A stretch of 64,000 nt of DNA from NCBI RefSeq assembly GCF_014203695.1, contig NZ_JACHJO010000012.1, forward strand, positions 1 through 64,000. The letters are read 5' to 3'. Source of the DNA: Nocardiopsis algeriensis. Its GTDB lineage: Bacteria; Actinomycetota; Actinomycetes; Streptosporangiales; Streptosporangiaceae. A model generated the notes under the pieces. It was not told the DNA's origin and searched no databases. It saw only the letters and a list, made by a program, of their open reading frames with translations. A program made the translations under genes and the position numbers. Positions 10,453-62,102 of the stretch are shown piece by piece. Positions within the stretch are counted from its first letter, which is position 1, and every line of letters starts with the position of its first letter.

Positions 10453-11748
10453 CTAGGAGGCGCTGACGCGTTCCACGTCGGCACCCAGCGCAGCGAGACG
10501 GTTCGCGAACTGTGCGTGACCTCGGTCCACCAGATAGCCGGGCGCCACGATTGTCTCACCTTCGGCGACCAGTCCGGCGAGCACCAGGGCGGCGCCGGTA
10601 CGGAGGTCGTGGGCGATCACCTCGGTGCCGCGCAGGTTGGTGGGGCCGTGCACGATGGCGCGGGTGCCCTCCACCTCGATCTTCGCGCCCATCTTGTTGA
10701 GCTCGTCGGCCAGGGCGAACCGGCCGTCGTAGATCGCCTCGTGGATGTAGCTCTCACCCTCGGCCATGGTGGCCAGCGCCATGAGCGGCGACTGGAGGTC
10801 GGTGGCGAAACCCGGGAAGGGCGACGTGACGGCGTTGATCGGGCGCAGCGGGGCCTGCGGGTCGCGCCGCACGTGCAGGACGGCACCCTGCTGGGCGAAC
10901 TCGACGCCCATCTGCTCCATCTTCCAGCGGGCCACGCCCAGGTGGTCCAGGTGGGCGCCCACCAGGCTGACCTCGCCGCCGGTGGCCGCGACGGCCATCG
11001 CGAACACGCCGGCGTCGATGCGGTCGGACATGATCGTGTGCTCGACCGCGGTGAGCTCCTCGACGCCCTCGACCGTGATGAGGCCGGTGCCGCCGCCGCT
11101 GATCTTGGCGCCCATGGCGGTCAGGAAGTCGATGACGTCCAGGACCTCGGGCTCCAGCGCGGCGTGCTCGATCACCGTCGTGCCGGGGGACAGGACCGCG
11201 GCCATGATGAGGTTCTCGGTGCCCGTGTGCGAGGGGGTGTCGAGGTAGAGGCGGCCGCCGCGGAGGTTGTCGGCCACGACGTTGATGTGGTTGAGCTCGA
11301 GGTCCTCGGTGACCTCGGCGCCCAGGCGCGCGAAGCCCCGGTAGTGGAAGTCGAGGTTGCGGCTGCCGAGGTTGCACCCGCCCACGCCCTCGATGCGGGC
11401 GCGACCGGTGCGGTGCATGAGCGCCGGAACGAAGAGCACCGAACCGCGGAAGCGGGCCGCGATGTCCGCGGGCAGGACCGCGCGCTCGGGGTCGTTCAGG
11501 CAGGAGGCGTCGATGACGACGGTGCGTTCCGCCTCGTGGAACTCGACCTTGGCGCCCACGTGCTCGGCGAGCTCGAGGGAGCGGTAGACGTCTTCGATGA
11601 CTGGGACGTTCCGCAGCACCGTACGGCCCTTGGCCGCGAGGAGGGCGGCCCCGATCATCGGCAGGACGGCGTTCTTCGCGCCCTGGACGAACGCCGTTCC
11701 ATTGAGGGGGCGTCCGCCGCGGACGCGGTAACGAACCTCCTGGCCCAT
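10453..11748 (-). CDS. murA: UDP-N-acetylglucosamine 1-carboxyvinyltransferase
   Basis: MurA transfers enolpyruvate from PEP to UDP-GlcNAc, the first committed step of peptidoglycan precursor synthesis in the cytoplasm. The 431-residue product has the substrate-binding GAKNAVLP at 23-30. The catalytic cysteine, target of fosfomycin, is Cys125 in GVGGCNLGSR. The acid loop is VTSPFPGFATDLQSP. Two in-frame ATGs lie at 11754 and 11748. The second has GGAG at the better distance (9 bases) and starts with MGQEVRYRV, so I chose it. Since the cysteine is present, fosfomycin sensitivity is expected at this site. Many actinobacteria keep two murA copies; only one is visible here. Confidence 0.93.
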   Translation of the reverse strand: MGQEVRYRVRGGRPLNGTAFVQGAKNAVLPMIGAALLAAKGRTVLRNVPVIEDVYRSLELAEHVGAKVEFHEAERTVVIDASCLNDPERAVLPADIAARFRGSVLFVPALMHRTGRARIEGVGGCNLGSRNLDFHYRGFARLGAEVTEDLELNHINVVADNLRGGRLYLDTPSHTGTENLIMAAVLSPGTTVIEHAALEPEVLDVIDFLTAMGAKISGGGTGLITVEGVEELTAVEHTIMSDRIDAGVFAMAVAATGGEVSLVGAHLDHLGVARWKMEQMGVEFAQQGAVLHVRRDPQAPLRPINAVTSPFPGFATDLQSPLMALATMAEGESYIHEAIYDGRFALADELNKMGAKIEVEGTRAIVHGPTNLRGTEVIAHDLRTGAALVLAGLVAEGETIVAPGYLVDRGHAQFANRLAALGADVERVSAS

Positions 11749-12088
11749 GCTCATGTGCTCCTTTGTGAGGCAGATGTGAAAAAAGGTCACCCTCGTCGGG
11801 TTTCGCCTATGTGCTTCTTAGACGCGGGTTTCCCCTGGAACGTTGCGACGATCTCGTGTGTGACCTGCGCGGCCAGTGAACCGTTGATTCGCGACGACTC
11901 TATAGCACCGGTCGGCCGGGACCGGCCCGGAACGGGTTGTACCCGCAGAACCGGAACGGAGCCCTGCCAATCGTCCAAAGAGGTATTCGCCTGACGGGAA
12001 AGACCGAGTTCGGAGGGGATCACCGTGCGACTGGCCGACCGGCGCCGCGGGGCCGCACACAGTGCCTTCAACCATACGTGCTTCCGCC
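11749..12088. other. intergenic, murA upstream region
   Basis: About 340 bases between murA and the purC terminator. It must contain the murA promoter. I could not assign it clearly and see no gene. Confidence 0.4.
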
Positions 12089-12089
12089 G

Positions 12090-12123
12090 GCCGTGATACC
12101 GAGCAGGTGTTCGGTATCACGGC
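12090..12123 (-). terminator. terminator after purC
   Basis: GCCGTGATACCGA and TCGGTATCACGGC form a perfect 13-bp stem with an 8-base loop, 11 bases beyond the purC stop. It closes the purA-purD-purC run. Confidence 0.8.
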
Positions 12124-12133
12124 GCCGGACCCC

Positions 12134-13039
12134 CTAGAGACGCGGCTTCTCCCCGGTCAGGCGCTCGTAGATCTCCGTGTAGCGGCCCAGAGTGTGTTCG
12201 ACCACCGGCTCCGGGAGGCCCGGCGGCGGGGTGTCCGAGGCCCGGTCCCACCCCGACTCGGCGGAGGTGAGCCAGTCCCGCAGCACCTGCTTGTCGAACG
12301 ACTCCTGCGGGCGCCCCGGGACCCACGCGTCGGCGGGCCAGTACCGGGAGGAATCGGGCGTGAAGACCTCGTCGGCCAGCACCAGGGAGCCGTCGGCGTC
12401 CCGGCCGAACTCGAACTTGGTGTCGGCCAGGAGGACCCCGCGCTCCCGGGCGAGTTCCCGGCCGCGCGCGTACACCCGCAGGGTGAGGTCGCGCAGCTCT
12501 GCGGCGAGCTCCCCGCCGTGGTGCCGCGCGACCTCCTCGAACGAGACGTTCTCGTCGTGGTCGCCGACCTCGGCCTTGGTGGCCGGGGTGAAGATCGGCT
12601 CGTCCAGTTCGGAACCGTCCACCAGCCCCTCGGGCAGCGGTATCCCGCACACCGTGCCGTCCACGCGGTACTCCGCCAGGCCCGAGCCGGTCAGGTACCC
12701 GCGGGCCACGCACTCGACCGGCACCATGTCCAGCCTCCGGCACACGAGCGTGCGGCCGGCCCAGTCCGCGGGGGCGCCCTCCGGCGGCGTGTCGGAGAGG
12801 ACGTGGTTCGGCACCAGGTCGGCCAGCTGGTCGAACCACCACAGGGACAGCTGCGTGAGCAGCCGGCCCTTGCCCGGGATCTCCGTGGGCAGCACCCAGT
12901 CGTAGGCGGACACGCGATCGCTGGCCACCATCACCAGCTCACCGGAGGCGGTGGCGTACAGGTCGCGCACCTTGCCGGTGTGCAGGTGGGTGAGGCCCTC
13001 GACCCGGACGGGCTCGGGCGTGACGACGAAACCGCTCAT
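12134..13039 (-). CDS. purC: phosphoribosylaminoimidazole-succinocarboxamide synthase (SAICAR synthetase)
   Basis: PurC joins aspartate to CAIR using ATP in purine synthesis. The 301-residue length matches the family. Landmarks are the N-terminal ATP lobe (HTGKVRDLYATASGELVMVASDRVSAYD), PVECVARGYLTGSG, TPATKAEVGDHDENVSF and LADTKFEFG near the substrate site. The start ATG 13039 lies 25 bases after the purD stop on the same strand, so the two are probably one transcript. Its ribosome site is weak. It is the last gene before the terminator at 12090. Confidence 0.95.
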   Translation of the reverse strand: MSGFVVTPEPVRVEGLTHLHTGKVRDLYATASGELVMVASDRVSAYDWVLPTEIPGKGRLLTQLSLWWFDQLADLVPNHVLSDTPPEGAPADWAGRTLVCRRLDMVPVECVARGYLTGSGLAEYRVDGTVCGIPLPEGLVDGSELDEPIFTPATKAEVGDHDENVSFEEVARHHGGELAAELRDLTLRVYARGRELARERGVLLADTKFEFGRDADGSLVLADEVFTPDSSRYWPADAWVPGRPQESFDKQVLRDWLTSAESGWDRASDTPPPGLPEPVVEHTLGRYTEIYERLTGEKPRL

Positions 13040-48958: not shown

Positions 48959-49873
48959 CTAGTGCGGGCAGCTGTCCCTGTAGTCGGAGAAGTCCGTGCC
49001 GAAGCCGGTACGGGGCGGCGGGCACAGGAACTGGTTGTAACGGGTGTCCTCGTCCACGAACCGCTTCAGCCAGGAGATGCTGTACTTGGCGATGACGGTG
49101 TTGGAGAGGTTCGGGGCGAAGTGGCTCGCGCCGCGCAGCTCCACGTACGCCCGGTCCAGCGAGGACGGCAGGCTCTCGTAGAACGGGATGGAGTGCGTGC
49201 GCACCGAGGCGATGGCGTCGTTCTCGGCGCCGATGATCATGGTCGGCACCTGGAGGGAGGACCAGCGCTTCTGGGTGTGCCAGGGGGTCAGCGGAATCGC
49301 GGCCCGCAGCTCGGGGCGGTCCTCGGACAGGGCGAGGGTGCCGCCGCCGCCCATGGAGTGGCCCATCGCGGCGAGGCGGTTCGGGTCGACGCGGTCGGCG
49401 ACGGAGCTGTCCTCGGTCAGGTAGTCGAGGGCCGCGTCGAGCTGGCGGGCCCGGCTGTTGGGCTGGTCGTAGATCGTGTTGGTGTCGATGGTGAACACCA
49501 CGAAGCCCTGCGAGGCGAGCCGGGGGCCCAGCCAGGCGATGGAGGACTGCGTTCCGGTGTACCCGGGGGAGATCACGACGCCGCCGAAGGTGCCTTCGCT
49601 GCGGGTGGTCGGGTAGTAGATGGTGCCGCCGCCGAAGCCGCGCACCCGGAGCGAGGACACGGACGTCTCACTGGTGCTGAAGGGGCCGCGGAGGGCGGTG
49701 ACGCTCTGCTCGGTCGGGTTGGGGCCGCGTTCGTAGGGGTTCGCCGCCTGGGCGGGGGCGGCGGCGCCGGCCGCGAGTCCGATGCTGAGGGCCGCGGCCA
49801 TGAATATCCGGGCCACCAAGGAGCGGCGCGGGGGGCGCGTCTCCGTTTCGGGGGAGGGGGTCTGGGTCTGCAC
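48959..49873 (-). CDS. secreted cutinase / polyester (PET) hydrolase
   Basis: 304 residues. A signal peptide ends in PAQA at residue 43, giving a mature [10 protein letters not shown] start identical to Thermobifida cutinases. The alpha/beta hydrolase has Ser173 in GHSMGGG, Asp219 (IGAENDAIA) and His251 (GASHFAPN). Subtracting 43 gives 130, 176 and 208, exactly the TfCut2 triad. Oxyanion Tyr105 (SPGYTG), Trp198 (TPWH) and the disulfide pair Cys284/Cys302 are present. These enzymes hydrolyse cutin and aliphatic polyesters, and several degrade PET. One metal-site position differs: TfCut2 Asp204 is Arg247 here. The gene is alone, with its own promoter and terminator. Confidence 0.95.
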
Positions 49874-50582: not shown

Positions 50583-50624
50583 CGCAGGTAGGGGAAGCGG
50601 TCCCTTCGCGGCCCCCTACCTGCG
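50583..50624. terminator. bidirectional terminator between chaB-like and P450 genes
   Basis: CGCAGGTAGGGG and CCCCTACCTGCG form a perfect 12-bp stem with an 18-base loop. It overlaps the P450 stop codon. Confidence 0.75.
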
Positions 50625-52013
50625 TCCGCGACCGGACCCGCGCCACCACCGGAGAAGGCGCCCCAGGATGTCGTCCTCCGACTCCTTCTCGTGCCCGGAC
50701 GTCCCGTTCCGCCCGGCCGTCCCGGTCCCTTCGCCCTTCGCCTTCTCGCCGACGGCGTTTCCCGGCCGGAAGAGGACCGGGAGAGCCTCCACCCCCCGCA
50801 CGAACGGTGACCGCACCGACCGCAGTTCCTCCGGCGCCACCGCCGACCGGAGCCCCGACAGCCGTTCGTTGAGCACCTCGACCGCGGTCGCCGCGATCAT
50901 CCTGGCCAGGTCCCGTGCCGGGCACGCGTGCGGGCCGGCACCGAACATCAGGTGAGCCCGGCTGCCGCCCGCCACCCCGGTCTCCTCCCGGCGGCCCTTG
51001 TAGACGGCCGGGTCCCGGTGGGCGGCATGGAACCCGATCAGCAGGGCGTCCCCCGCCCGCACCCGCGCGTTGCCCAGCAGCATGTTCTGGAGGGCGAACC
51101 GGGCGGGCAGGATCTGGAAGGGCGTGTCTGTCCACATGACGTGGTCGAGCAGGTCCTGGGCCGAGATCCGTGCGTCGGCGTACGCCGAGCGGATGCGCGT
51201 GTCGGTCAGCAGCGTGCGCATCGTGTTGCCGATGAGGTGCGTTGTGGTCTGGTGGCTGGAGTTGTTGATGAGTGCCGCCTGATGGGCCACCTCGTGCTCC
51301 GTGAGGCCGGCCGGGTGCTCCAGCATCCACGAGACCAGGTCGGCACCGGGCCTCTTGCGCTTGCGCACGACCAGGCCCGCGAAGTACTGCTGAAGGCGGA
51401 TGACCGCGTCCTCCGCCTCGCGCGGGTCCTCGCCGAAGATGATCGACGTGAGGTCGCCCAGCATGCGCCCGTAGCTGTCGGGGAGTCCGCAGAGCCGGTT
51501 GATCACGAGGACGGGGAGCGGATCGGCGTACTCCGCGATGAGGTCCGCGCTGCCCCTGGCGACGAACGCGTCCACCAGGTCGTCGGCGATCTGCCGGACC
51601 AGCTGCGAGGTCGCGCCCATGTCCAGCCTGGCGATGCTGTCCGCGATGGGGGCGCGCAGACGCGCGTGTTCGCTGCCGTCGGCGTACAGGGCGTTGGGGC
51701 GCCAGGACAGCGCGGGGCGGCCGGCCGACAGGTCGACGCGGCCCTCGGTGACCTCCCTCCACCGCCGGGTGTCACGGGAGAACAGGTGCGGACTCTGCAG
51801 GACGGTGAGGTTCTCGTGGTAGCCGAGGAGCAGCCACGCCGTCACACCGGACTCCAGCGCGACAGGGACCACGGGTCCGTGCTGCTCGCGCAGCCGGTCC
51901 CACCAGTCGTCGTGGTCACCGGAACCGCCGGTTTCGCCGGGGCCCCCGCCGAGCCGGAAGACCTCGACGGGACAACCTCCGACCGCTGATCCGTCGGGGG
52001 AGTGGAGAGTCAT
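50616..52013 (-). CDS. cytochrome P450 lacking the ExxR motif
   Basis: 465 residues. The haem-binding segment LMFGAGPHACPARDLARM supplies the thiolate cysteine (about 362). Two other P450 hallmarks are altered. The I-helix has NNSSHQTT (about 251-258) rather than AGxDT. The K-helix has DHVMW at 290-294, followed by TDTPFQILPAR, where ExxR is expected. Streptomyces CYP157 enzymes also lack ExxR (EQSLW there), so this may be a relative. The C-terminus has a polar ~50-residue extension ending RRWW-like (LLRWWRGSGRGRR). Start ATG 52013 lacks a ribosome site. No ferredoxin or conservon genes are nearby, so redox partner and substrate are unknown. Confidence 0.88.
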   Translation of the reverse strand: MTLHSPDGSAVGGCPVEVFRLGGGPGETGGSGDHDDWWDRLREQHGPVVPVALESGVTAWLLLGYHENLTVLQSPHLFSRDTRRWREVTEGRVDLSAGRPALSWRPNALYADGSEHARLRAPIADSIARLDMGATSQLVRQIADDLVDAFVARGSADLIAEYADPLPVLVINRLCGLPDSYGRMLGDLTSIIFGEDPREAEDAVIRLQQYFAGLVVRKRKRPGADLVSWMLEHPAGLTEHEVAHQAALINNSSHQTTTHLIGNTMRTLLTDTRIRSAYADARISAQDLLDHVMWTDTPFQILPARFALQNMLLGNARVRAGDALLIGFHAAHRDPAVYKGRREETGVAGGSRAHLMFGAGPHACPARDLARMIAATAVEVLNERLSGLRSAVAPEELRSVRSPFVRGVEALPVLFRPGNAVGEKAKGEGTGTAGRNGTSGHEKESEDDILGRLLRWWRGSGRGRR

Positions 52014-52430
52014 CGTGGGCGCGGCCCGGGCCGGGAGGACCGCTTCCCTCCCTTCGAGGAGACAAGACGTGCTGCGGGAAATGGGAGGGGAGGCAGGGGC
52101 ATATTCTCTGACCGCGGCATTGCCTGATCGCGGTGTTGCCTGGTCACGGCATTCTAGAAGGATGGCGAGCGGTCCATCAACAGATTCGGAGAAGTTCCAC
52201 TCTCTCTCCCGCGCATTCCGGATAAAGCCCTTATAATGCTTGTGAGTAGTTTTTGGGTTGATCTTCCGGTATTCGAAGCGCGAGGACGCAGCTTCCCCCT
52301 GCGAGTTTCCCACCCCGCAGCGACAGTTCCGGGGACCCTTGTGCGGGTCCCTCCGGCGGACACGGACAGTTGTTCGCAGCCTTCTCGGAGGCCCCCTTTT
52401 TTGTCACCGCCGGTCCCTAGTGTTCTTCCC
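52014..52430. other. divergent promoter region of P450 and SWIM operon
   Basis: About 417 bases containing an AT-richer block (52150-52260). It must carry promoters for the P450 gene and for the five-gene operon. TAGTGT at 52419-52424 stands just before GTG 52431 and could be a -10 for a leaderless transcript. No gene is seen. Confidence 0.4.
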
Positions 52431-53750
52431 GTGAGCGATCGATGGAGTACCGACGACGTATGGGCGCTGGCTCCGGACGCCTCCTCCCGCAAGGCGGCCC
52501 TCAAGGTGGCCAAGGACGGCTCCTGGCCGCAGCGGGGCGCTGTCGCCGCCGAGGCCGGCGGTACCGCCGCCGTCTGGGGGGAGTGCAAGGGGAGCGGGTC
52601 CAAGCCCTACCTGTCCGCCGTCCACCTGGACGACCCGGCCGGGCCCGGCTACAAGTGCAGCTGCCCCAGCCGCAAGATCCCCTGCAAGCACGTCCTCGGC
52701 CTGCTCGCCCTGTGGGCCGGCGGCGAGGTCGCCGACCGCGAGGACAGGCCCGAGTGGGTGGCCAAGTGGCTCGGCGGCCGTGCCGCCCGCAAGGAGCGGG
52801 CCGCGGGCACCGCCTCCAAGCCGGTCGACCCGGAGAAGGCCGCCGCCACCCTGCGCAAGCGTGAGGAGGCCGTCGGCGCGGGCATGGACGAACTCGGTCT
52901 GTGGCTGCGGGACCAGATCGACGCGGGGCTCGCCGAGGTGCCCAAGCACGGCTACGGCCACTGGGACCGGATGGCCAAGCGCCTGGTGGACGCCAAGGCG
53001 GGTGCCGCGGCCACACTCGTCACCGACATGCCCTCCGAGGCCCGCGGGGACCACTGGCCCGAGCGCGTGCTCGAACGGTTCGCCCTCCTCCACCTTCTGG
53101 TCGAGGGGTTCCGCGCCGGTGACGCGGCCGGCCCCCGCGTCCGGGGCGCCGTCCGCGCCCGTGCGGGGATCACCACCCGGGTCGAGGAGGTCCTCGCCGA
53201 CGGGGAGCGCGTGCGCGACACGTGGCAGGTGCTGGGCATGAGCTCCTCCTTCAAGGAGCAGACGACCACCCGCCGGGTGTGGCTGCGCGGCAGGAGGACC
53301 GGCCGCGTCGCCCTGTCGCTGAGCCACGCCCGGGGGGAGCAGGCGCCGCCCACCCCCTTCCGTTCGGCGTGCGAGACCGACACCGAACTGGCCTTCTACC
53401 CCGACGGTCACCGCGCGGCCCCGGCGGAGCCGCCCGAGATGCGGCCCTCGGGCCCGCCCCCGGGAAGCTCGGTCCCCGAGGCCCTCGACGCCTTCGCCGC
53501 CGCGCTCGCCGAGGACCCGTGGCTGGACGCCTGGCCCGTGGTGCTGGCCGACGCGGTCCCCGCCCGCGACGGCGGCTGGTTCCTGGCCGACGCCTCCGGG
53601 AACGCACTGCCGCTGGAGAGCGGCGACCCCTGGGAGTTTCTCGCCGTGACCGGCGGCAGGCCCTCCACGGTCGCCGCGGAGTGGTCGCCCCGCACGGGGC
53701 TGTCCCCCCTCACCGTGTGGGACCGGAACGGAAAGGCGGTGTCCCTGTGA
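52431..53750 (+). CDS. SWIM zinc-finger protein
   Basis: 439 residues; first gene of a five-gene coupled operon. The SWIM motif is C76-x-C78 ... C85-x-H87 (KCSCPSRKIPCKH), a zinc-binding fold that binds DNA or proteins. It is preceded by PYLSAVHLDDPAGPGYKCSC as in relatives. The rest is helical, then beta-rich, without catalytic motifs. GTG 52431 is chosen because the conserved DRWSTDDVWALAPDASSRKA begins right there; the open frame upstream is unsupported. Its stop overlaps the next start (GTGA). In other actinobacteria, as I recall, SWIM proteins accompany DUF5691, MoxR, DUF5682 and VWA genes. Confidence 0.88.
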   Translation: MSDRWSTDDVWALAPDASSRKAALKVAKDGSWPQRGAVAAEAGGTAAVWGECKGSGSKPYLSAVHLDDPAGPGYKCSCPSRKIPCKHVLGLLALWAGGEVADREDRPEWVAKWLGGRAARKERAAGTASKPVDPEKAAATLRKREEAVGAGMDELGLWLRDQIDAGLAEVPKHGYGHWDRMAKRLVDAKAGAAATLVTDMPSEARGDHWPERVLERFALLHLLVEGFRAGDAAGPRVRGAVRARAGITTRVEEVLADGERVRDTWQVLGMSSSFKEQTTTRRVWLRGRRTGRVALSLSHARGEQAPPTPFRSACETDTELAFYPDGHRAAPAEPPEMRPSGPPPGSSVPEALDAFAAALAEDPWLDAWPVVLADAVPARDGGWFLADASGNALPLESGDPWEFLAVTGGRPSTVAAEWSPRTGLSPLTVWDRNGKAVSL

Positions 53751-55321
53751 GCACCCCGTCCCCCGCAGGCTTCTCTTCCCCCGCCGACCCCCTGGAGGCG
53801 AACACCTCCTGGGACAAGCTGGTCTCCGCCGCGCTCGTCGGGACCTCGCGCCGCCCGGCGCCCCCCACCCCGGACCTCCCCCCGACCCCCGCGGACGAGG
53901 ACGCCGAGGCAGGTGCGTCCGCCCTCCTCGACCGGGCGGCCCTGGCCGTCGTACGCCGTTTGGCGGGACATGTCCCCGCCACCGTGGCCGCCGAGGCCGT
54001 CGTGGCCCCCGACGGTGAGGACGACGCCTCCGTCGCCGGCCCGGAGGTGACCCGGCGCCTGGAGCGCATCCTCGCCGGGCCCTCCGAGCTTCTGCCCGAA
54101 TGGCTCGGCCTCGCCGGCGCCGCAGGCCTGCACGTCGCCCCCTCCACCCTGCCCGCCCTCCTGGCCAAGGGGGCCTACAACAGCAGCCTGCGCCCCGCCA
54201 TCGCCGCGGTCGCCGGCCCCCGGGGCCGGTGGCTGGCCCGGGTCAACCCCGGGTGGGGGTACGTGAACGCCCTCGACCCCCGGGACAGGGTCTTCGACGA
54301 ACACACCTGGGAGCGGGGCTCCGCCGTCGAGCGCTCCCACGCCCTCGCCGCACTGCGCGCCGTGGACCCCGACCGGGCCAGGGAACTCCTGGCCGCCGCA
54401 TGGCCGGACCTGGGCAGGGCCGAGCTGCGCCGGCACCTCCTGGAGGCGCTGTCGACCGGCCTCGGCCCCGCCGACGAGGAGTTCGTCGAGAAGGCCCTCG
54501 ACGACAAGGGCGGCAACGTCCGCGGCCTCGCGCTGTCCCTCCTGGTCCGCCTGCCCGACAGCGCCCACGCCCACCGCCTGCGCGGCTACGTCCGCGACCT
54601 CGCCACGTTCCCCCAGGGCCTCATGGACGGCGCCGAGGTCGCCTCCCTGGGACCGCAGGCGCTCCGGGACCTCGCCCTCGTCCCGGCGGGAGACAAGCCC
54701 GGGGCGCAGGTCGACCGCGAGCACCGGTGGGCACTGGTCACCAACACGCCCCTGGACGTCTGGACCGAGCTGACCGGCCGCGACCCCGCCGGGATCTTCC
54801 GGTACGCGGAGGAGCACGAGGGACCGCTGTTCGACGCGCTCGCCAACGCCATCACCCACCAGGGCAACGCGGAATGGGCCCGTGCCCTCCTCACCGTCTT
54901 CAGGGACGGTGCCCTCGGCCGGACGAACGACTTCGCGCGCCGGCACCCCTCGTTCCCTCTGCGCGCGCTGCTGTCGCTCCTGCCGGTCGAGGAGCGCTGC
55001 GCCTGGGTCCTGGGCTCCCTCACCGAGAAGAGCAGCATGCAGGACCTGTACGACCTGCTCGCCGGTACCGCCGGCCCCTGGACGAGGGAGCTCTCCGCCG
55101 AGGTGGCCGGACGCCTGCGCGCCCCCAAGTGGCAGAGGGACGCCAGGGCCTACGGCCCCGTCTGCGAGATCGCCGCCGAGCGCATGCCCGTGGACGGCAT
55201 CGACGACCTTCCTCCCGACCTTCCCGAGATCCGGGGCTCGTACGGCAACGCCGAGCCCTCCTACGCCGCTCTTCGCGACACCCTTCTTTTCCGCCTCGAC
55301 ATGCACAGGGAGTTCATGTGA
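53747..55321 (+). CDS. DUF5691 family protein
   Basis: 524 residues, mostly helical with HEAT/ARM-like repeats: PALLAKGAYNSSLRPAIAAV, SALERSHALAALRAVDPDRA-type segments, LLEALSTGLGPADEEFVEKA and LALSLLVRLPDSAHAHRLR. It fits DUF5691, found beside SWIM/MoxR/VWA genes. It has a near-invariant WDKLVSAALVGTSRR at the start. No catalytic site is seen, so a scaffold role is likely. It starts at GTG 53747 inside the previous stop and ends in the next gene's start, both GTGA overlaps. Confidence 0.85.
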   Translation: MSTPSPAGFSSPADPLEANTSWDKLVSAALVGTSRRPAPPTPDLPPTPADEDAEAGASALLDRAALAVVRRLAGHVPATVAAEAVVAPDGEDDASVAGPEVTRRLERILAGPSELLPEWLGLAGAAGLHVAPSTLPALLAKGAYNSSLRPAIAAVAGPRGRWLARVNPGWGYVNALDPRDRVFDEHTWERGSAVERSHALAALRAVDPDRARELLAAAWPDLGRAELRRHLLEALSTGLGPADEEFVEKALDDKGGNVRGLALSLLVRLPDSAHAHRLRGYVRDLATFPQGLMDGAEVASLGPQALRDLALVPAGDKPGAQVDREHRWALVTNTPLDVWTELTGRDPAGIFRYAEEHEGPLFDALANAITHQGNAEWARALLTVFRDGALGRTNDFARRHPSFPLRALLSLLPVEERCAWVLGSLTEKSSMQDLYDLLAGTAGPWTRELSAEVAGRLRAPKWQRDARAYGPVCEIAAERMPVDGIDDLPPDLPEIRGSYGNAEPSYAALRDTLLFRLDMHREFM

Positions 55322-56439
55322 CCGCCTCCCCCTCCACCCCGGCCCTCTCCACCGACGCCGCGCAGGCCCTGCGCCCGCACGCCGAGCAGACCTACGCGGC
55401 CGAGCTCGAGGCCCTGGCCAAGGCCGACGACCGTCAGCGCCCCCCGGGCTGGCAGCTCTCCCCGTGGGCGGTCACCCAGTACCTCCTGGGCACCACGCTC
55501 GACGACGGCACCGAGATCACGCCCAAGTACATCGGCGCCCGCCGTGTCGTCGAGATCGCCGTCGCCACCCTGGCCACCGACCGCGCGCTGCTGCTGATCG
55601 GCGTTCCCGGCACCGCCAAGACGTGGTTGTCGGAGCACCTGGCCGCCGCGATCTCCGGTGACTCCACCCTCCTGGTCCAGGGCACCGCGGGCACCTCCGA
55701 GGAGGCCGTCCGCTACGGCTGGAACTACGCCCGGCTGCTCGCCGAGGGCCCCTCCGAGGCGGCCATGGTGCCCAGCCCCGTCATGACGGCGATGGCCCGC
55801 GGCTCGATCGGCCGCATCGAGGAGCTCACCCGCATGCCGTCCGACGTCCAGGACGGCCTCATCACCGTCCTGTCGGAGAAGGCCCTTCCCGTCTCCGAAC
55901 TGGGCATCGAGGTCCAGGCCCGGCGCGGGTTCAACATCATCGCCACCGCCAACGACCGCGACCGGGGCGTCAACGACCTGTCGAGCGCGCTGCGGCGCCG
56001 CTTCAACACCGTGGTGCTGCCGGTTCCCGACAGCGCCGAGGACGAGGTCCGCATCGTCACCCAGCGGGTGGAGCAGCTCGGCCGGTCGCTGGAACTGCCG
56101 GAGGTCCCCGCGAGCCTGGCGGAGATCCGCCGCGTGGTGACGGTGTTCCGCGAACTGCGGTCGGGCATGACCGAGGACAACGGCACCAAGGTCAAGTCGC
56201 CCAGCGGCACCCTCAGCACCGCCGAGGCGATCTCGGTCATCACCAACGGCATCGCGCTGGCGGCGCACTTCGGCGACGGCGTCCTGCGCCCCGCCGACGT
56301 GGCCGCCGGCATCCAGGGTGCGGTCGTGCAGGACCGCGTGTCCGACGGCGTGGTCTGGCGCGAGTACCTGGAGACGGTCGCCCGCGGCCGCGAGGGCTGG
56401 GACGAGTTCTACCGCGCCTGCCGCGAGGTGGGAGCCTGA
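55318..56439 (+). CDS. MoxR-type AAA+ ATPase
   Basis: 373 residues of the MoxR/RavA-like AAA+ group. It has Walker A GVPGTAKTWL (about 95-104), a MoxR-style Walker B region (SIGRIEELTRMPSDVQDGLI), sensor 1 in FNIIATANDRDRGVNDLSSA and arginine-finger region LRRRFNTVVLP. MoxR ATPases act as chaperones that insert cofactors or remodel complexes with VWA-domain partners. One such partner is encoded two genes later. The gene starts at GTG 55318 within the previous stop, and its own stop overlaps the ATG of the next gene by one base. Confidence 0.93.
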   Translation: MTASPSTPALSTDAAQALRPHAEQTYAAELEALAKADDRQRPPGWQLSPWAVTQYLLGTTLDDGTEITPKYIGARRVVEIAVATLATDRALLLIGVPGTAKTWLSEHLAAAISGDSTLLVQGTAGTSEEAVRYGWNYARLLAEGPSEAAMVPSPVMTAMARGSIGRIEELTRMPSDVQDGLITVLSEKALPVSELGIEVQARRGFNIIATANDRDRGVNDLSSALRRRFNTVVLPVPDSAEDEVRIVTQRVEQLGRSLELPEVPASLAEIRRVVTVFRELRSGMTEDNGTKVKSPSGTLSTAEAISVITNGIALAAHFGDGVLRPADVAAGIQGAVVQDRVSDGVVWREYLETVARGREGWDEFYRACREVGA

Positions 56440-58793
56440 TGGCCAAGCTGGACACGAGCGGGCTGCACGTCCTGGGCGTGCGCCACCACGGCCCGGGCTC
56501 GGCCCGGGCCGTGCGGGCGGCCCTGGAGGAGATCAAGCCCGACGCGGTGCTGATCGAGGGGCCTCCCGAGGCGGACGCGCTCATCCCGCTGGTGGGAGAG
56601 CTGGAGCCGCCGGTGGCGCTGCTGGCCTACCTCGCCGACACCCCGAAGGGGAAAGCCGCGGCGGGTGAGGAGGGGGCTGCGGCCGAAGGCCGGCGTTCGA
56701 GGGCGGCGGGTGACGGGTGGGCGTTCTGGCCCTTCGCCTCCTTCTCCCCCGAGTGGGAGGCCCTGCGCTACGCCGTCGCCCACGGCGCCGAAGTGCGCTT
56801 CTGCGACCTTCCGGCCGCCCACACCTTCGCCGAGCGCATCGCCGAGGCCGAGGAGCAGGCGGCCGAGGACAGGGAAGCCGATCCCCCGGAGGTCCCCGGG
56901 GAGATCGACGGCCCTGCCGCCCCCGGTACCGAGCGCATGCGCCTGGACCCCCTCGGGGTCCTGGCCGAGGCCGCCGGCTACGACGATGCCGAACGCTGGT
57001 GGGACGATGTCGTCGAGCAGCGCGGCGACGGCGAGCCCTCCCCTTTCCCCGCGATCGCCGACGCCATGGCGGCCGTACGCGAGGAGACCGGGCCGGCCGA
57101 GGGGCGCGAGGCGCGCCGCGAGGCCTACATGCGCAAGGTCCTGCGTGCCACCCTCAGGAAGGGGCACGAGCGGGTGGCCGTGGTCTGCGGCGCCTGGCAC
57201 GCCCCTGCGCTGCGCGACGTGGCCGACCATCCCGCAGGTGCGGACAATGCCCTGCTCAAGGGGCTGCCCAAGGCCAAGGTCAACGTCACCTGGGTGCCGT
57301 GGACGCACGGGAGACTCGCCTCCTCCAGCGGCTACGGCGCCGGGGTGAGCGCGCCGGGCTGGTATTACCACCTCTACACCGCGCCCGACCTGCCGGTGCA
57401 CCGGTGGCTCACCGAGGCCGCGCGGCAACTGCGCGACGAGGGGCGGCACGTGTCGTCCTCCCACGTCATCGAGGGTGTGCGCCTGGCCGAGAGCCTGGCC
57501 GTGCTGCGCGGGCGCCCGCTCGCCGGTCTGGACGAGGTGGCCGAGGCGCTCACCGCGGTCCTGTGCGAGGGGGAGCCCGCCCCGGCCGCGCTCGTGCACG
57601 GCAGGATGGCGATCGGTGAGCGGATGGGCTCGGTCCCGCCGTCCACGCCCATGGTGCCGCTCCAGCGCGACGTCATCGCCGCGCAGAAGCGGATGCGGCT
57701 CAAGCCCGAGCCGCTCGCCCGCGACCTCGAACTGGACCTGCGCAAGGAGGGCCAGCGCGAGCGGAGCGTCCTGCTGCACAGGCTCCGGATCCTCGGCGTT
57801 CCGTGGGGATCGCCCATGGTGTCCGAGACCGGGAAGAAGGGCACCTTCCGCGAGGCGTGGCGGCTGGTCTGGGAGCCCGAGCTGGACGTGGCGCTCATCG
57901 AGGCCAGCAGGTGGGGCACCACCGTGGAGACGGCGGCCACGGCCCGCGCCGTCGAGAAGGCGGAGGGCGCCGAGCTCCCGGTGCTGACCGCGGTCACCGA
58001 ACAGTGCCTGATGGCCGACCTCGGTGAGGCCCTGCCCCGGATCCTGGCCCTGATCACCGACCGGGCGGCCACCGACAGCGACGTCACCCACCTCATGGAG
58101 GCCCTCCTGCCGCTGGCGCGCTCGGCCCGCTACGGCGACGTCCGCGGCACCGACTCCGGCCACCTGCGGACGGTCGCCGAGCAGATCCTGCGCCGGGTGT
58201 GCGTCGGACTGGCGCCGGCGACGCACGGGCTGGACGACGACGCGGCGGCCGCGTTCGTCCGGCACATCGACCGGACGAACACCGCCGCCACCCTCCTGGG
58301 CGGGGACGCCCTGGCGGAGTGGGAGTCGGCCCTGCGCGCCCTGGCGCTGCGCGACACCCTGCCGGGCCGGATCGCGGGCCGGGTCAACCGGATGCTGTCG
58401 GACGCCGGACACCTGGCACCGGAGGAGCTGCGGCGCCGTCTGGGGCTGGCGATGTCCCAGGGGACGGAGCCCGCCGAGGCCGCCGCCTGGCTGGAGGGCT
58501 TCCTCCAGGGCAGCGGGCTGATCCTCGTGCACGACGACAAGATGCTCGGCCTCATCGACACCTGGCTGCTCGGGCTGCCCGAGGAGCGCTTCACCGCAGT
58601 GCTGCCGCTGCTGCGGCGCACGTTCGGCGGGTTCGACGGCGCCGAGCGCCGCGAGATCGGCGAGGCGGCGGCCCGGCTCGGGACCTCGGAGCCCGCCGCC
58701 GAGAAGGTGCACGTGCCGGTGGACGCCGAGCGGGCCGCCCCGGCCCTGGCCACCGCACTGGCACTCCTCACCAACGGAAGGAAGGGCGCATGA
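56439..58793 (+). CDS. DUF5682 family protein with TraB/ChaN-like GxxH motifs
   Basis: 784 residues, the largest protein of the operon. Residues 1-~270 hold GVRHHGPGS at 13-21, DAVLIEGPPEAD at 35-46 and VVCGAWHAP with Gly251 and His254. This GxxH ... E ... GxxH arrangement recalls the TraB/PrgY, ChaN and erythromycin-esterase superfamily, whose His/Glu set forms a metal-type or hydrolytic site; I infer the link. A Glu-rich insertion lies near 70-90. The remaining ~500 residues are helical and unrecognised. It overlaps the MoxR stop (TGATG) and the VWA start (ATGA). Confidence 0.85.
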   Translation: MAKLDTSGLHVLGVRHHGPGSARAVRAALEEIKPDAVLIEGPPEADALIPLVGELEPPVALLAYLADTPKGKAAAGEEGAAAEGRRSRAAGDGWAFWPFASFSPEWEALRYAVAHGAEVRFCDLPAAHTFAERIAEAEEQAAEDREADPPEVPGEIDGPAAPGTERMRLDPLGVLAEAAGYDDAERWWDDVVEQRGDGEPSPFPAIADAMAAVREETGPAEGREARREAYMRKVLRATLRKGHERVAVVCGAWHAPALRDVADHPAGADNALLKGLPKAKVNVTWVPWTHGRLASSSGYGAGVSAPGWYYHLYTAPDLPVHRWLTEAARQLRDEGRHVSSSHVIEGVRLAESLAVLRGRPLAGLDEVAEALTAVLCEGEPAPAALVHGRMAIGERMGSVPPSTPMVPLQRDVIAAQKRMRLKPEPLARDLELDLRKEGQRERSVLLHRLRILGVPWGSPMVSETGKKGTFREAWRLVWEPELDVALIEASRWGTTVETAATARAVEKAEGAELPVLTAVTEQCLMADLGEALPRILALITDRAATDSDVTHLMEALLPLARSARYGDVRGTDSGHLRTVAEQILRRVCVGLAPATHGLDDDAAAAFVRHIDRTNTAATLLGGDALAEWESALRALALRDTLPGRIAGRVNRMLSDAGHLAPEELRRRLGLAMSQGTEPAEAAAWLEGFLQGSGLILVHDDKMLGLIDTWLLGLPEERFTAVLPLLRRTFGGFDGAERREIGEAAARLGTSEPAAEKVHVPVDAERAAPALATALALLTNGRKGA

Positions 58794-59953
58794 ACGGCGT
58801 GGACGAGCGGGAGCGCCGCTGGCGTCTGGTCCTGGGCCGCGAGGCCCGCTGCACGGGCGGCCTCGGCGCCGCGGACCGGGGCATGGACGACGCCCTGGCG
58901 GCGCTGTACAACGACCGCGGCCTCGGCCGGAACCGGGGCGGCAGCGAACGCGGCGCCGGCCTGGGCGGCTCCGCCCCCAAGGTGGCGCGCTGGCTGGGCG
59001 ACATCCGGGAGTACTTCCCGACCTCGGTCGTACAGGTCATGCAGAAGGACGCCATGGACAGGCTCGGCCTGCACCAGCTCCTCCTCGAACCCGAGATGAT
59101 GGAGGCCGTCGAACCGGACGTGCACCTCGTGGGCACCCTGCTGTCGCTGAACAAGGTGATGCCCGACGAGGCCCGCGAGTCCGCCCGCGCCCTGGTGCGC
59201 AAGGTCGTCGACGACCTGGAGCGCCGCGTCGAGCAGAAGACGCGCTCCCTGGTGCAGGGCGCGATCGACCGCTCGGTGCGCACCCACCGTCCGCGTCGGG
59301 TCGCCGACATCGACTGGAACGCCACGATCCGCCGCAACCTGGCCAATTACCTGCCCGAGCACAACACGGTCGTGCCCGAGACCCTGGTGGGCTACGGCCG
59401 CCGCAGCCGCGGCGTGCAGAAGGACGTCGTGCTGGCGATCGACCAGAGCGGTTCGATGGCGTCCTCGGTCGTGTACGCGAGCGTGTTCGGCGCGGTTCTG
59501 GCCTCCATGAAGACGCTGCGTACGTCCCTGGTCGTCTTCGACACCTCCGTGGTGGACCTGACGGAGCAGCTCACCGACCCGGTCGAGGTGCTCTTCGGCA
59601 CACAGCTGGGCGGAGGCACGCACATCAACAAGGCGATCGCCTACTGCCAGGGCCTGATCACCAAGCCGAACGACTCGATCTTCGTCCTGATCAGCGACCT
59701 GTACGAGGGCGGTGTCCGAGAGGAGATGCTGCGCCGTGTCGCGTCGATGAAGGCCGCCGGCGTCCAGGTTGTGGTGCTGCTGGCGCTCTCGGACGAGGGC
59801 GCGCCGTTCTACGATCGGGACAACGCCGCCGCACTCGCCGCGATGGACGTCCCGGCGTTCGCCTGCACCCCGGACATGTTCCCCGAGCTCATGGCGGCGG
59901 CGATCCAGGGGCAGCCCCTCACGGCGTGGGTGGACAAGGAGCAGGACGCCTGA
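58790..59953 (+). CDS. VWA-domain protein, MoxR partner
   Basis: 387 residues. An N-terminal helical part (YNDRGLGRNRGGSERGAG, then LGDIREYFPTSVVQVMQKDA) is followed by a von Willebrand A domain (about 210-385). Its metal site is complete: MIDAS DQSGSMASS (Asp218, Ser220, Ser222), the threonine in GGGTHIN and the acid in LISDLYEGG. Such VWA proteins work with MoxR ATPases to fold or activate targets. It is the last gene of the SWIM-DUF5691-MoxR-DUF5682-VWA operon and is coupled to DUF5682 by ATGA. No obvious terminator follows; the next genes are convergent. Confidence 0.92.
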   Translation: MNGVDERERRWRLVLGREARCTGGLGAADRGMDDALAALYNDRGLGRNRGGSERGAGLGGSAPKVARWLGDIREYFPTSVVQVMQKDAMDRLGLHQLLLEPEMMEAVEPDVHLVGTLLSLNKVMPDEARESARALVRKVVDDLERRVEQKTRSLVQGAIDRSVRTHRPRRVADIDWNATIRRNLANYLPEHNTVVPETLVGYGRRSRGVQKDVVLAIDQSGSMASSVVYASVFGAVLASMKTLRTSLVVFDTSVVDLTEQLTDPVEVLFGTQLGGGTHINKAIAYCQGLITKPNDSIFVLISDLYEGGVREEMLRRVASMKAAGVQVVVLLALSDEGAPFYDRDNAAALAAMDVPAFACTPDMFPELMAAAIQGQPLTAWVDKEQDA

Positions 59954-60887: not shown

Positions 60888-61070
60888 CTAGGAACGGAGG
60901 ACTCGCAGCAGCGCGGACCACTCGGCGCCGGGGAAGGCAAGCATGCCCAGATCGCGGTTCTGGGTGTCGCGCACAGCAGCTCCCTCCGGCAGGTCGGCGA
61001 CCTCCACACAGTTTTCGGTGCGTGCCCCGCTGTAGCTGGACTTACGGAACTTCAGGTCGTGGGCTTGCAT
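60888..61070 (-). CDS. DUF397 small regulatory partner protein
   Basis: 60 residues, the whole DUF397 domain: LKFRKSSYSGARTENCVEVA, then VRDTQNRDLGMLAFPGAEWS. DUF397 proteins almost always accompany an XRE-DUF5753 regulator (WhiJ-like pairs in Streptomyces) and are thought to be antagonists or partners of it. Its ATG 61070 lies 19 bases inside the upstream regulator gene, so they are translationally coupled. Confidence 0.95.
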   Translation of the reverse strand: MQAHDLKFRKSSYSGARTENCVEVADLPEGAAVRDTQNRDLGMLAFPGAEWSALLRVLRS

Positions 61071-61936
61071 ACGGATTCCTTGCTGGATGAGTCGGCCAGG
61101 ACACTCTCCAGGAACACGGTGGATTCCTGGACACTCAGAGCAGATGCACTCACGTACTGGTATACGAGCTCGAAAGCCTCGGTGTCTTCCATGTCTTCGT
61201 ACACCTGCTGTTTGGCAGCGTTCTCTGTGTAGACCAAGCCGGAGTCCTCGGCGAAGTCAAGGATCGTGAACCCGCCGCTCACCGCAGCATGGAGACCGGC
61301 GCTGTCAGGGAGTATCTGTACTCGTAGGTTCGGGCGCTGAACGCTGACCAGGTGGCGGATCTGCTGCTCGCGCACCGACTCAGGGATCTTGCGCAGAGCG
61401 GCTTCGTCGAGAATGCACCAGTACGTAGGCCCTTCTGCCTGAGGGTCCAGGATCCTTTGGCGGAGCATGCGTGCCTCAACTCGCCGCTCGACTTCCTCCT
61501 GATCGGCTATACCGCCACCGACAACGACCGCACGAGCGTAACCCTGAGTCTGCAACAGACCGGGAACGACTGTCAGGGCAACTTCTCGGATGCGTGAGGC
61601 GCCAGGCTCCAGGCCAGTGAGTTCCCCTTGCCCAAGGACATCGGTGTAGGAGGACCACCAGCCCTTCTGCCTGGCTTCCTTGGCCAGGCGGATGTATTCC
61701 TCGCGCTCAGCCAGTTCGGTGACGCCGTAGATGTCGAGCAGGACCTCGACGTCTTCCAGCTTGGGGCGCACCCACTCATCACGTTCCAGCCTCGTGATCT
61801 TGGATGCCGACCACCGGGCAGCACCCAACTCGCGAGCCTTGCTGGTGACCTGGTCCGCCGTCAGTCCTGCCGCTTCTCGACTTTCCCGTAGCAGACGTGA
61901 GAGCCGTCGCTTGCTCAAGGGAGGTGAAGTGGCCAT
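61052..61936 (-). CDS. XRE-family regulator with DUF5753 domain
   Basis: 294 residues. An N-terminal helix-turn-helix (about 8-65: RLSRLLRESREAAGLTADQV, then SASKITRLERDEW) is followed by DUF5753 (about 95-280: VVPGLLQTQGYARAVV, YWCILDEAALRK, QILPDSAGLHAAVSGGFTIL). Such proteins pair with DUF397 partners and act in development, antibiotic or immunity-like regulation in actinobacteria. ATG 61936 has AAGGAG 5 bases upstream; an open extension upstream is unlikely. It is divergent from the four-gene cassette at 62103, which it may control. Confidence 0.93.
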   Translation of the reverse strand: MATSPPLSKRRLSRLLRESREAAGLTADQVTSKARELGAARWSASKITRLERDEWVRPKLEDVEVLLDIYGVTELAEREEYIRLAKEARQKGWWSSYTDVLGQGELTGLEPGASRIREVALTVVPGLLQTQGYARAVVVGGGIADQEEVERRVEARMLRQRILDPQAEGPTYWCILDEAALRKIPESVREQQIRHLVSVQRPNLRVQILPDSAGLHAAVSGGFTILDFAEDSGLVYTENAAKQQVYEDMEDTEAFELVYQYVSASALSVQESTVFLESVLADSSSKESVCKPTT

Positions 61937-62102
61937 CAGGACTCCTTGCTCCGAGGCTCGCCTCTTTCCAGAACTTGATCCTACGTCTGTCCTTGGGTTT
62001 TCGGACATTACGCCCATCACCAACCTAAAGCTAAGTCACGCCGAACTTGCCTCCTGACTAATCTATAAGTTGGTCTTGCATTTTTTGCTTGGTCGGGTGA
62101 AC

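Follow-up and report, generated by a model that had tools for sequence, protein, structure and literature searches.

The 64,000-nucleotide stretch of Nocardiopsis algeriensis DNA analysed here (positions 1 to 64,000 of contig NZ_JACHJO010000012.1, referred to below as the window) contains five adjoining + strand genes, which encode a SWIM zinc-finger protein, a DUF5691 protein, a MoxR-type ATPase, a DUF5682 protein and a VWA protein, with successive overlaps of 4, 4, 1 and 4 nucleotides. The genes and their principal motifs are as follows, with fractions giving the aligned relatives that keep the residues named.

52431-53750, + strand: SWIM zinc-finger protein, YehQ counterpart by position, 439 amino acids (Pfam SWIM 25.9 bits, 7.2e-6, cut-off 19.6)
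52656-52691, + strand: SWIM motif CxCPSRKxPCKH, residues 76-87, with the zinc ligands
53747-55321, + strand: DUF5691 protein, 524 amino acids (PF18944, 3.9e-106)
55318-56439, + strand: MoxR AAA+ ATPase of YehL type, 373 amino acids (AAA_5, 1.3e-36)
55600-55623, + strand: MoxR Walker A, GVPGTAKT (G, G and K in 123/123)
55819-55824, + strand: MoxR Walker B acidic pair, Glu-Glu (EE in 123/123)
56439-58793, + strand: DUF5682 protein, YehM counterpart, 784 amino acids with a long C-terminal region (PF18934, 1e-267)
56475-56486, + strand: DUF5682 GxRH (H16), first proposed active-site motif (H16 in 126/126)
56556-56558, + strand: DUF5682 E40, proposed catalytic Glu (126/126)
57189-57200, + strand: DUF5682 GxxH (G251-H254), second proposed active-site motif (126/126), the stretch giving the TraB profile match
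58790-59953, + strand: VWA protein of CoxE type, YehP counterpart, 387 amino acids (VWA_CoxE, 7.1e-53)
59441-59455, + strand: metal ion-dependent adhesion site (MIDAS) motif DxSxS of the VWA protein (D, S and S in 121/121)

All five proteins passed the curated Pfam cut-offs, far beyond chance, which confirms the five genes with overlaps of one to four bases described in an earlier note on this DNA. Judged by its sequences, the operon is distantly related to the yehL-yehQ genes of Escherichia coli, which are themselves uncharacterised. In comparison with the proteins of E. coli K-12, the MoxR protein shared 41% identity with YehL over 356 amino acids (3e-79) and the VWA protein 36% with YehP over 368 amino acids; residues 11-500 of the DUF5682 protein aligned with YehM at 30%. 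No significant BLASTP alignment was found between the SWIM protein and YehQ; both pass the Pfam SWIM cut-off. The gene order in E. coli is yehI (DUF4132), yehK, yehL, yehM, yehP and yehQ (SWIM), so that the two clusters share homologous MoxR, DUF5682 and VWA genes and the presence of a SWIM gene, but differ in that E. coli has DUF4132 (yehI) instead of DUF5691, that its SWIM gene lies at the opposite end, and that YehM forms a separate deep branch in the DUF5682 tree. MoxR proteins include seven named subfamilies, and YehL is one of them (PMC3893208). The gene context of the YehL type, with VWA, YehM-like and SWIM partners, is present in the window, with DUF5691 standing where E. coli has DUF4132. 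The clusters of E. coli, Allorhizobium and Iodobacter contained DUF4132 genes and no DUF5691 annotation; plasmids of Rhizobium and Deinococcus carried the same gene set as the window, DUF5691 included. In the literature searched, we found no published function for yehL, yehM, yehP or yehQ, no paper on DUF5682 or DUF5691, and no paper joining a SWIM zinc finger with MoxR. The earlier note had called the operon a candidate for an undescribed system whose function was not established; the second part agrees with the literature searched, and the first calls for qualification, because the yeh genes are a counterpart and YehL already has a subfamily name.

The gene set was conserved well beyond the genus. 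When GTDB contigs were scanned with a sequence pattern, at least 588 DUF5682 relatives were confirmed, and of the best 80, which were kept, 68 had enough flanking sequence (5.5 kb upstream and 1.3 kb downstream). All five genes were present in 66 of these 68 loci, including those of Leptolyngbya (cyanobacteria) and of an Isosphaeraceae planctomycete; 39 loci were collinear, and 27, all from Streptomyces and near kin, had the SWIM and DUF5691 genes on the opposite strand. The two exceptions were a contig ending 1654 bases past DUF5682 (L091) and a cyanobacterium having DUF5682 alone (L116). Since the divergent-strand loci do without the overlap, overlap is no proof of fixed stoichiometry, which the earlier note had deduced from it. 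A further arrangement, VWA-MoxR-DUF5682, was seen in L037 and L141, where DUF5682 was low-scoring. In addition, 36 plasmid records contained DUF5682, a few of them being of chromosome size.

Within the phylum, DUF5682 was present in 25 of 296 genomes sampled (12/193 genera), and DUF5691 above the cut-off in 22. Comparison of the tables by eye placed these 22 all among the 25 genomes with DUF5682, the two genes lying on the same contig a few kb apart; the other three (G176, G248 and G280) had DUF5682 without DUF5691. Five more genomes, without DUF5682, gave sub-cut-off DUF5691 matches (E 1e-4 to 8e-4), which were taken as chance. Presence in the phylum is thus patchy, and losses or old transfers must therefore have occurred. 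In E. coli, yehL-Q were found at a coverage of at least 80% in 5162 of 5426 complete genomes (95%).

Within the genus, inheritance is vertical. A DUF5682 match was obtained in 36 of 37 same-genus genomes; the remaining genome is an 85% complete assembly. G026 had only a fragment, and in G012 and G024 the gene was in pieces. In 31/31 same-genus loci (the window and 30 from the 37 genomes, a count that leaves out G012, G016, G018, G026, G034 and G036), the five genes had the same order and strand, one locus having SWIM, and one DUF5691 and DUF5682, in broken frames. A divergent upstream gene lay no more than 1 kb from SWIM in 28 of 30 same-genus loci. The distances of each gene correlated with those of rpoB (19 genomes; Mantel r 0.76-0.89), none of 2000 permutations reaching values as high, and the DUF5682 tree, which splits into three subfamilies, broadly followed taxonomy. 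The earlier note had set strict vertical inheritance together with a housekeeping phenotype against its own proposal; half of this was found, in that descent is vertical within the genus but distribution across the phylum is patchy.

The layout had been likened in the earlier note to MoxR-vWA conflict systems. The operon does resemble the ternary systems of this kind in that its MoxR and VWA pair is joined by a conserved third protein, but the four defining third components of those systems were not found in it: a Pfam scan of the five proteins revealed no VMAP, iSTAND, FtsH or beta-propeller partner. The operon also differs in that its VWA protein has no C-terminal effector, none of 121 VWA frames extending more than 100 amino acids past the domain (the longest tail had 23), and the bpMoxR model scored 22.4 bits, below its cut-off of 27. 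Against PADLOC-DB 2.0.0, the five proteins gave no significant match, only weak partial ones (best E 0.0028), and six relatives and partners gave none either. Defence-island neighbours, suggested in the earlier note as a check, were not enriched: 107 flank open reading frames (ORFs) from 11 loci, five of them the operon's own DUF5691 copies, matched 42 PADLOC families, with mad3, PD-T4-6 and mad6 at the head of the 25 commonest families listed per set, compared with 144 families in 118 ORFs of eight control regions. The ORFs were of 130-1600 amino acids and derived from GC-frame (guanine-plus-cytosine) gene calls (107/108 target and 118/124 control), a ninth control region being excluded. Control regions L222-L229 hold DISARM-type genes (DrmA, DrmD and DrmMII), which inflate the control family count, and the comparison shows no more than an absence of PADLOC enrichment. 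On viral contigs, a further pattern scan revealed no relative. One database record of 14 kb that carries the label Bacteriophage sp. (MT835988.1) encodes a DUF5682 homologue at 10674-12758; it may be a mislabelled bacterial contig.

Membership in the MoxR-vWA conflict systems thus fails on the missing partners and effector tail, on vertical descent in the genus and on the PADLOC result. A defence function of that kind, in which SWIM-DUF5691 would sense invader nucleic acid or protein, MoxR-VWA would set a threshold and DUF5682 would be the effector, has several points in its favour: the ATPase/VWA logic is the same as in the ternary systems (PMC7159879), relatives of which are also found near CRISPR loci (PMC10910872), DUF5691 diverges fast, and some copies are plasmid-borne, with one, a DUF4132-type relative, adjoining type I restriction genes. 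These are set against the PADLOC searches of proteins and flanks, the viral scan, the VWA protein without an effector tail, and a system that is vertical in the genus and core in E. coli, and we consider defence an unlikely function. A defence island is disfavoured, and an inherited core function appears the better description of the operon.

The relatives also indicate how the five proteins may be grouped. The third DUF5682 subfamily (type C) comprises six loci, five from the window's genus and one from G057, which belongs to a different family of the class. In five of the six (L140, L142, L144, L145 and L155, not L143) DUF5682 and VWA_CoxE are encoded in a single uninterrupted frame, joined in L142 by a linker with abundant Pro, Thr, Ser and Ala. 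In Hymenobacter sp. HDW8 (L034), SWIM and DUF5691 form one gene of 1009 residues, in which the Pfam SWIM model scores below its cut-off but the family profile that we built scores 295 bits. Because of these two kinds of fusion and the divergent layout in Streptomyces, the data argue for two working units, DUF5682-VWA(-MoxR) and SWIM-DUF5691. E. coli database entries in which DUF5682 is joined to AAA, VWA, SWIM or DUF4132 were set aside, being judged likely frame errors. In L140, L142 and L143, an open frame of 1800-2000 residues adjoins MoxR; the two that were scanned (L142 and L143) gave no Pfam match.

For the first unit, the MoxR and VWA pair proposed in the earlier note was supported, its ATPase and MIDAS motifs being intact. 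The MoxR protein keeps the Walker A, sensor and arginine residues (aligned relatives, n = 123), and the VWA relatives keep the later Asp of the MIDAS in 121/121 and its Thr in 119/121. The acidic pair of Walker B is usually Asp-Glu, and is Glu-Glu in this MoxR group. A sequence search of solved structures matched the operon to midasin (2e-15) and NorQ (1.3e-6) and gave no convincing relative of DUF5682, DUF5691, SWIM or VWA. The operon resembles the CoxD-CoxE, RavA-ViaA and NorQ pairs in combining a MoxR ATPase with a VWA partner, here of the VWA_CoxE family, but differs from them by adding SWIM, DUF5691 and DUF5682 and by having no known client enzyme alongside.

This kinship raises the question of a cofactor-maturation chaperone, in which the CoxD/CoxE-like MoxR-VWA pair would insert or repair the metal centre of a client and DUF5682 would be the client metalloprotein or a scaffold. 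CoxD-CoxE has been described in metal-cluster insertion (PMC7159879), a connection with molybdate has been made for MolR, which is related to the DUF4132 partner (PMC8533742), and the molybdopterin-enzyme domains MoCoBD_1 and MoCoBD_2 occurred in 2 of the 107 flank ORFs. However, no single neighbour recurs widely and no fixed sixth gene was found across genera: the neighbour cluster furthest spread outside the operon reached 7/35 genus labels (7/77 loci, at scattered distances), and the clusters with 12 and 10 genus labels fall mostly inside the operon (16/22 and 9/10 members, antisense in the examples inspected), their other members being outside or unplaced. In addition, moeA and moeB were unchanged in PMC8533742. 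We hold cofactor maturation to be improbable.

The DUF5682 protein, which the earlier note had called a possible enzyme, gained support as such from a conserved His/Glu/His set and a weak profile match. H16, E40 and H254 were present in 126/126 relatives, many of them closely related, and the first Gly in 123; for as many as 80 of these relatives, the N-terminal motif containing H16 had itself served as the search pattern, whereas E40 and H254 are unbiased. Among 97 listed YehM relatives of more than 700 amino acids, the three motifs were found in 95, 93 and 91, and Phe replaced the second His of RHH in 2 of 12 YehM relatives inspected. The layout, a GxxH, 24 residues to a Glu, and a later GxxH after R-E-x-x-M, resembles that of TraB/GumN proteins. 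Enzymes of the TIKI family work with pairs of His and Glu residues, His-85 and Glu-113 forming the His-Glu pair in Bcr135 (PMC6254334), and the His-to-Glu spacing is 24 residues in DUF5682, 26 in YbaP by manual alignment count, and 28 in Bcr135. When 52 DUF5682 N-termini were compared with nine TraB-family proteins by hhalign, a match of 32 columns was obtained at the second motif (score 29.9, E 0.0032, probability 9.9%); none of 150 column permutations scored above 20.0, the reversed profile reached 15.9, and the best of five unrelated profiles scored 21.1. Compared with the TIKI/TraB/GumN proteins, represented by E. coli YbaP, DUF5682 has a similarly spaced GxxH, Glu and second GxxH and a weak local profile match, but differs in its large C-terminal region and in that overall similarity is undetectable. 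The favoured reading, a claim at the level of motifs, is that DUF5682 may be a TIKI/TraB-like hydrolase.

DUF5682 could instead be a catalytically dead TIKI-like protein or an unrelated scaffold, the system then being a plain protein-remodelling chaperone. This would agree with a profile match that is weak and local only. It would also agree with the sequence just ahead of the first His: the enzyme described in PMC6254334 carries Glu two positions before this His, whereas DUF5682 has no acidic residue there (YbaP is also without it). However, H16, E40 and H254 are conserved across three subfamilies, and a dead enzyme or scaffold appears to us a rather doubtful, though not far-fetched, explanation.

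For the second unit, 100 of 106 aligned relatives retained the zinc ligands of the SWIM motif, the remainder being mostly gaps. The HEAT-like character of DUF5691 proposed in the earlier note gained some support from HEAT matches in 13 of 48 relatives and HEAT_2 matches in nine (best 2.1e-5), though none occurred in the window's own copy.

Taken together, these data may be explained by a YehL-type, ATP-driven protein machine made up of two modules, in which MoxR-VWA activates or serves the TIKI-like hydrolase and SWIM-DUF5691 is the adaptor, a model to which we give an even chance of being right. In the first module, a MoxR ring, assumed from its family to be a hexamer, would act with the CoxE-type VWA co-chaperone on DUF5682, the N-terminal third of which carries the TIKI/TraB-like His/Glu/His hydrolase signature. 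In the second, the SWIM zinc finger and the putatively HEAT-like DUF5691 would form an adaptor recognising a substrate or site, a part that the DUF4132 protein and another SWIM protein would play in E. coli. ATP hydrolysis by MoxR, relayed through the MIDAS of the VWA protein, would remodel, load or release DUF5682, which would thereby act only on targets presented by the adaptor. Such a complex may form in N. algeriensis, and the process it would serve seems to be an ancient core or stress function, retained mostly by vertical descent, rather than a phage-defence island. In Deinococcus, genes for DUF4132 and WGR proteins are induced upon depletion of DdrO, and a link of MolR to molybdate and LexA is mentioned (PMC8533742); the induction of DUF4132 hints at stress, but DUF4132 is the partner that is absent from the window's operon.

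Several observations weigh against this model. E. coli DGF-298 is viable, and its deletion list contains yehI, yehK, yehL, yehM, yehP and yehQ (PMC10652928); the distribution across the phylum is patchy, with 25 of 296 genomes positive; and broken-frame copies occur in G012, G024 and G021, whether through decay or through errors of assembly. Of two Hymenobacter plasmids, one showed the fusion of SWIM with DUF5691, the other having SWIM annotated as a gene of its own, and DUF5691 diverges fast, with a median identity of 49.8% compared with 92.6% for MoxR, a pattern that an arms race might also produce. The match to TraB extends over no more than 32 columns, with the low probability given by hhalign itself, and Pfam PF01963 matched 1 of 45 DUF5682 members (E 0.32). 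A relationship of DUF5682 to the erythromycin esterases was rejected, the Ere profile doing no better than chance (4/100 permutations scored as high).

The surroundings of the operon contain further features. The divergent gene directly upstream (50616-52403, - strand) gave only a sub-threshold cytochrome P450 match, and a polyethylene terephthalate (PET)-hydrolase-like enzyme is encoded at 48959-49873 (- strand; PF12740, 1.9e-125). Straight after the operon, between 60000 and 62000, the guanine-plus-cytosine content falls to 0.62. The ORF at 61055-62035 (- strand) may be a recent insertion, because weak relatives of it (median identity 31%) were found in only 5 of 38 compared regions. Elsewhere in the window's own genome, an erythromycin-esterase family gene lies in two pieces (G000:C9:275097-276162).

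A bolder version of the two-module model, which we regard as quite unlikely, is that DUF5682 is a TIKI-fold protease gated by the MoxR-VWA ring, giving an energy-dependent proteolytic or processing machine of new design, extending from actinomycetes to E. coli. If this were true, its exchangeable partners would be SWIM-DUF5691, SWIM-DUF4132 and, in type C, where DUF5682 and VWA are one polypeptide, the partner of about 1800-2000 residues. 

Versions of the proposed YehL-type machine are carried by 95% of the complete E. coli genomes and by 36 of the 37 genomes of the window's genus, and no known job was found for any of its parts. The tempting defence lead is weakened, the operon's behaviour being unlike that of a defence island. 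One module, with a candidate active site and with natural fusions that indicate which parts may touch, can be recognised behind DUF-labelled genes of distant phyla, and a gap in the core genome of E. coli thereby becomes directly testable.

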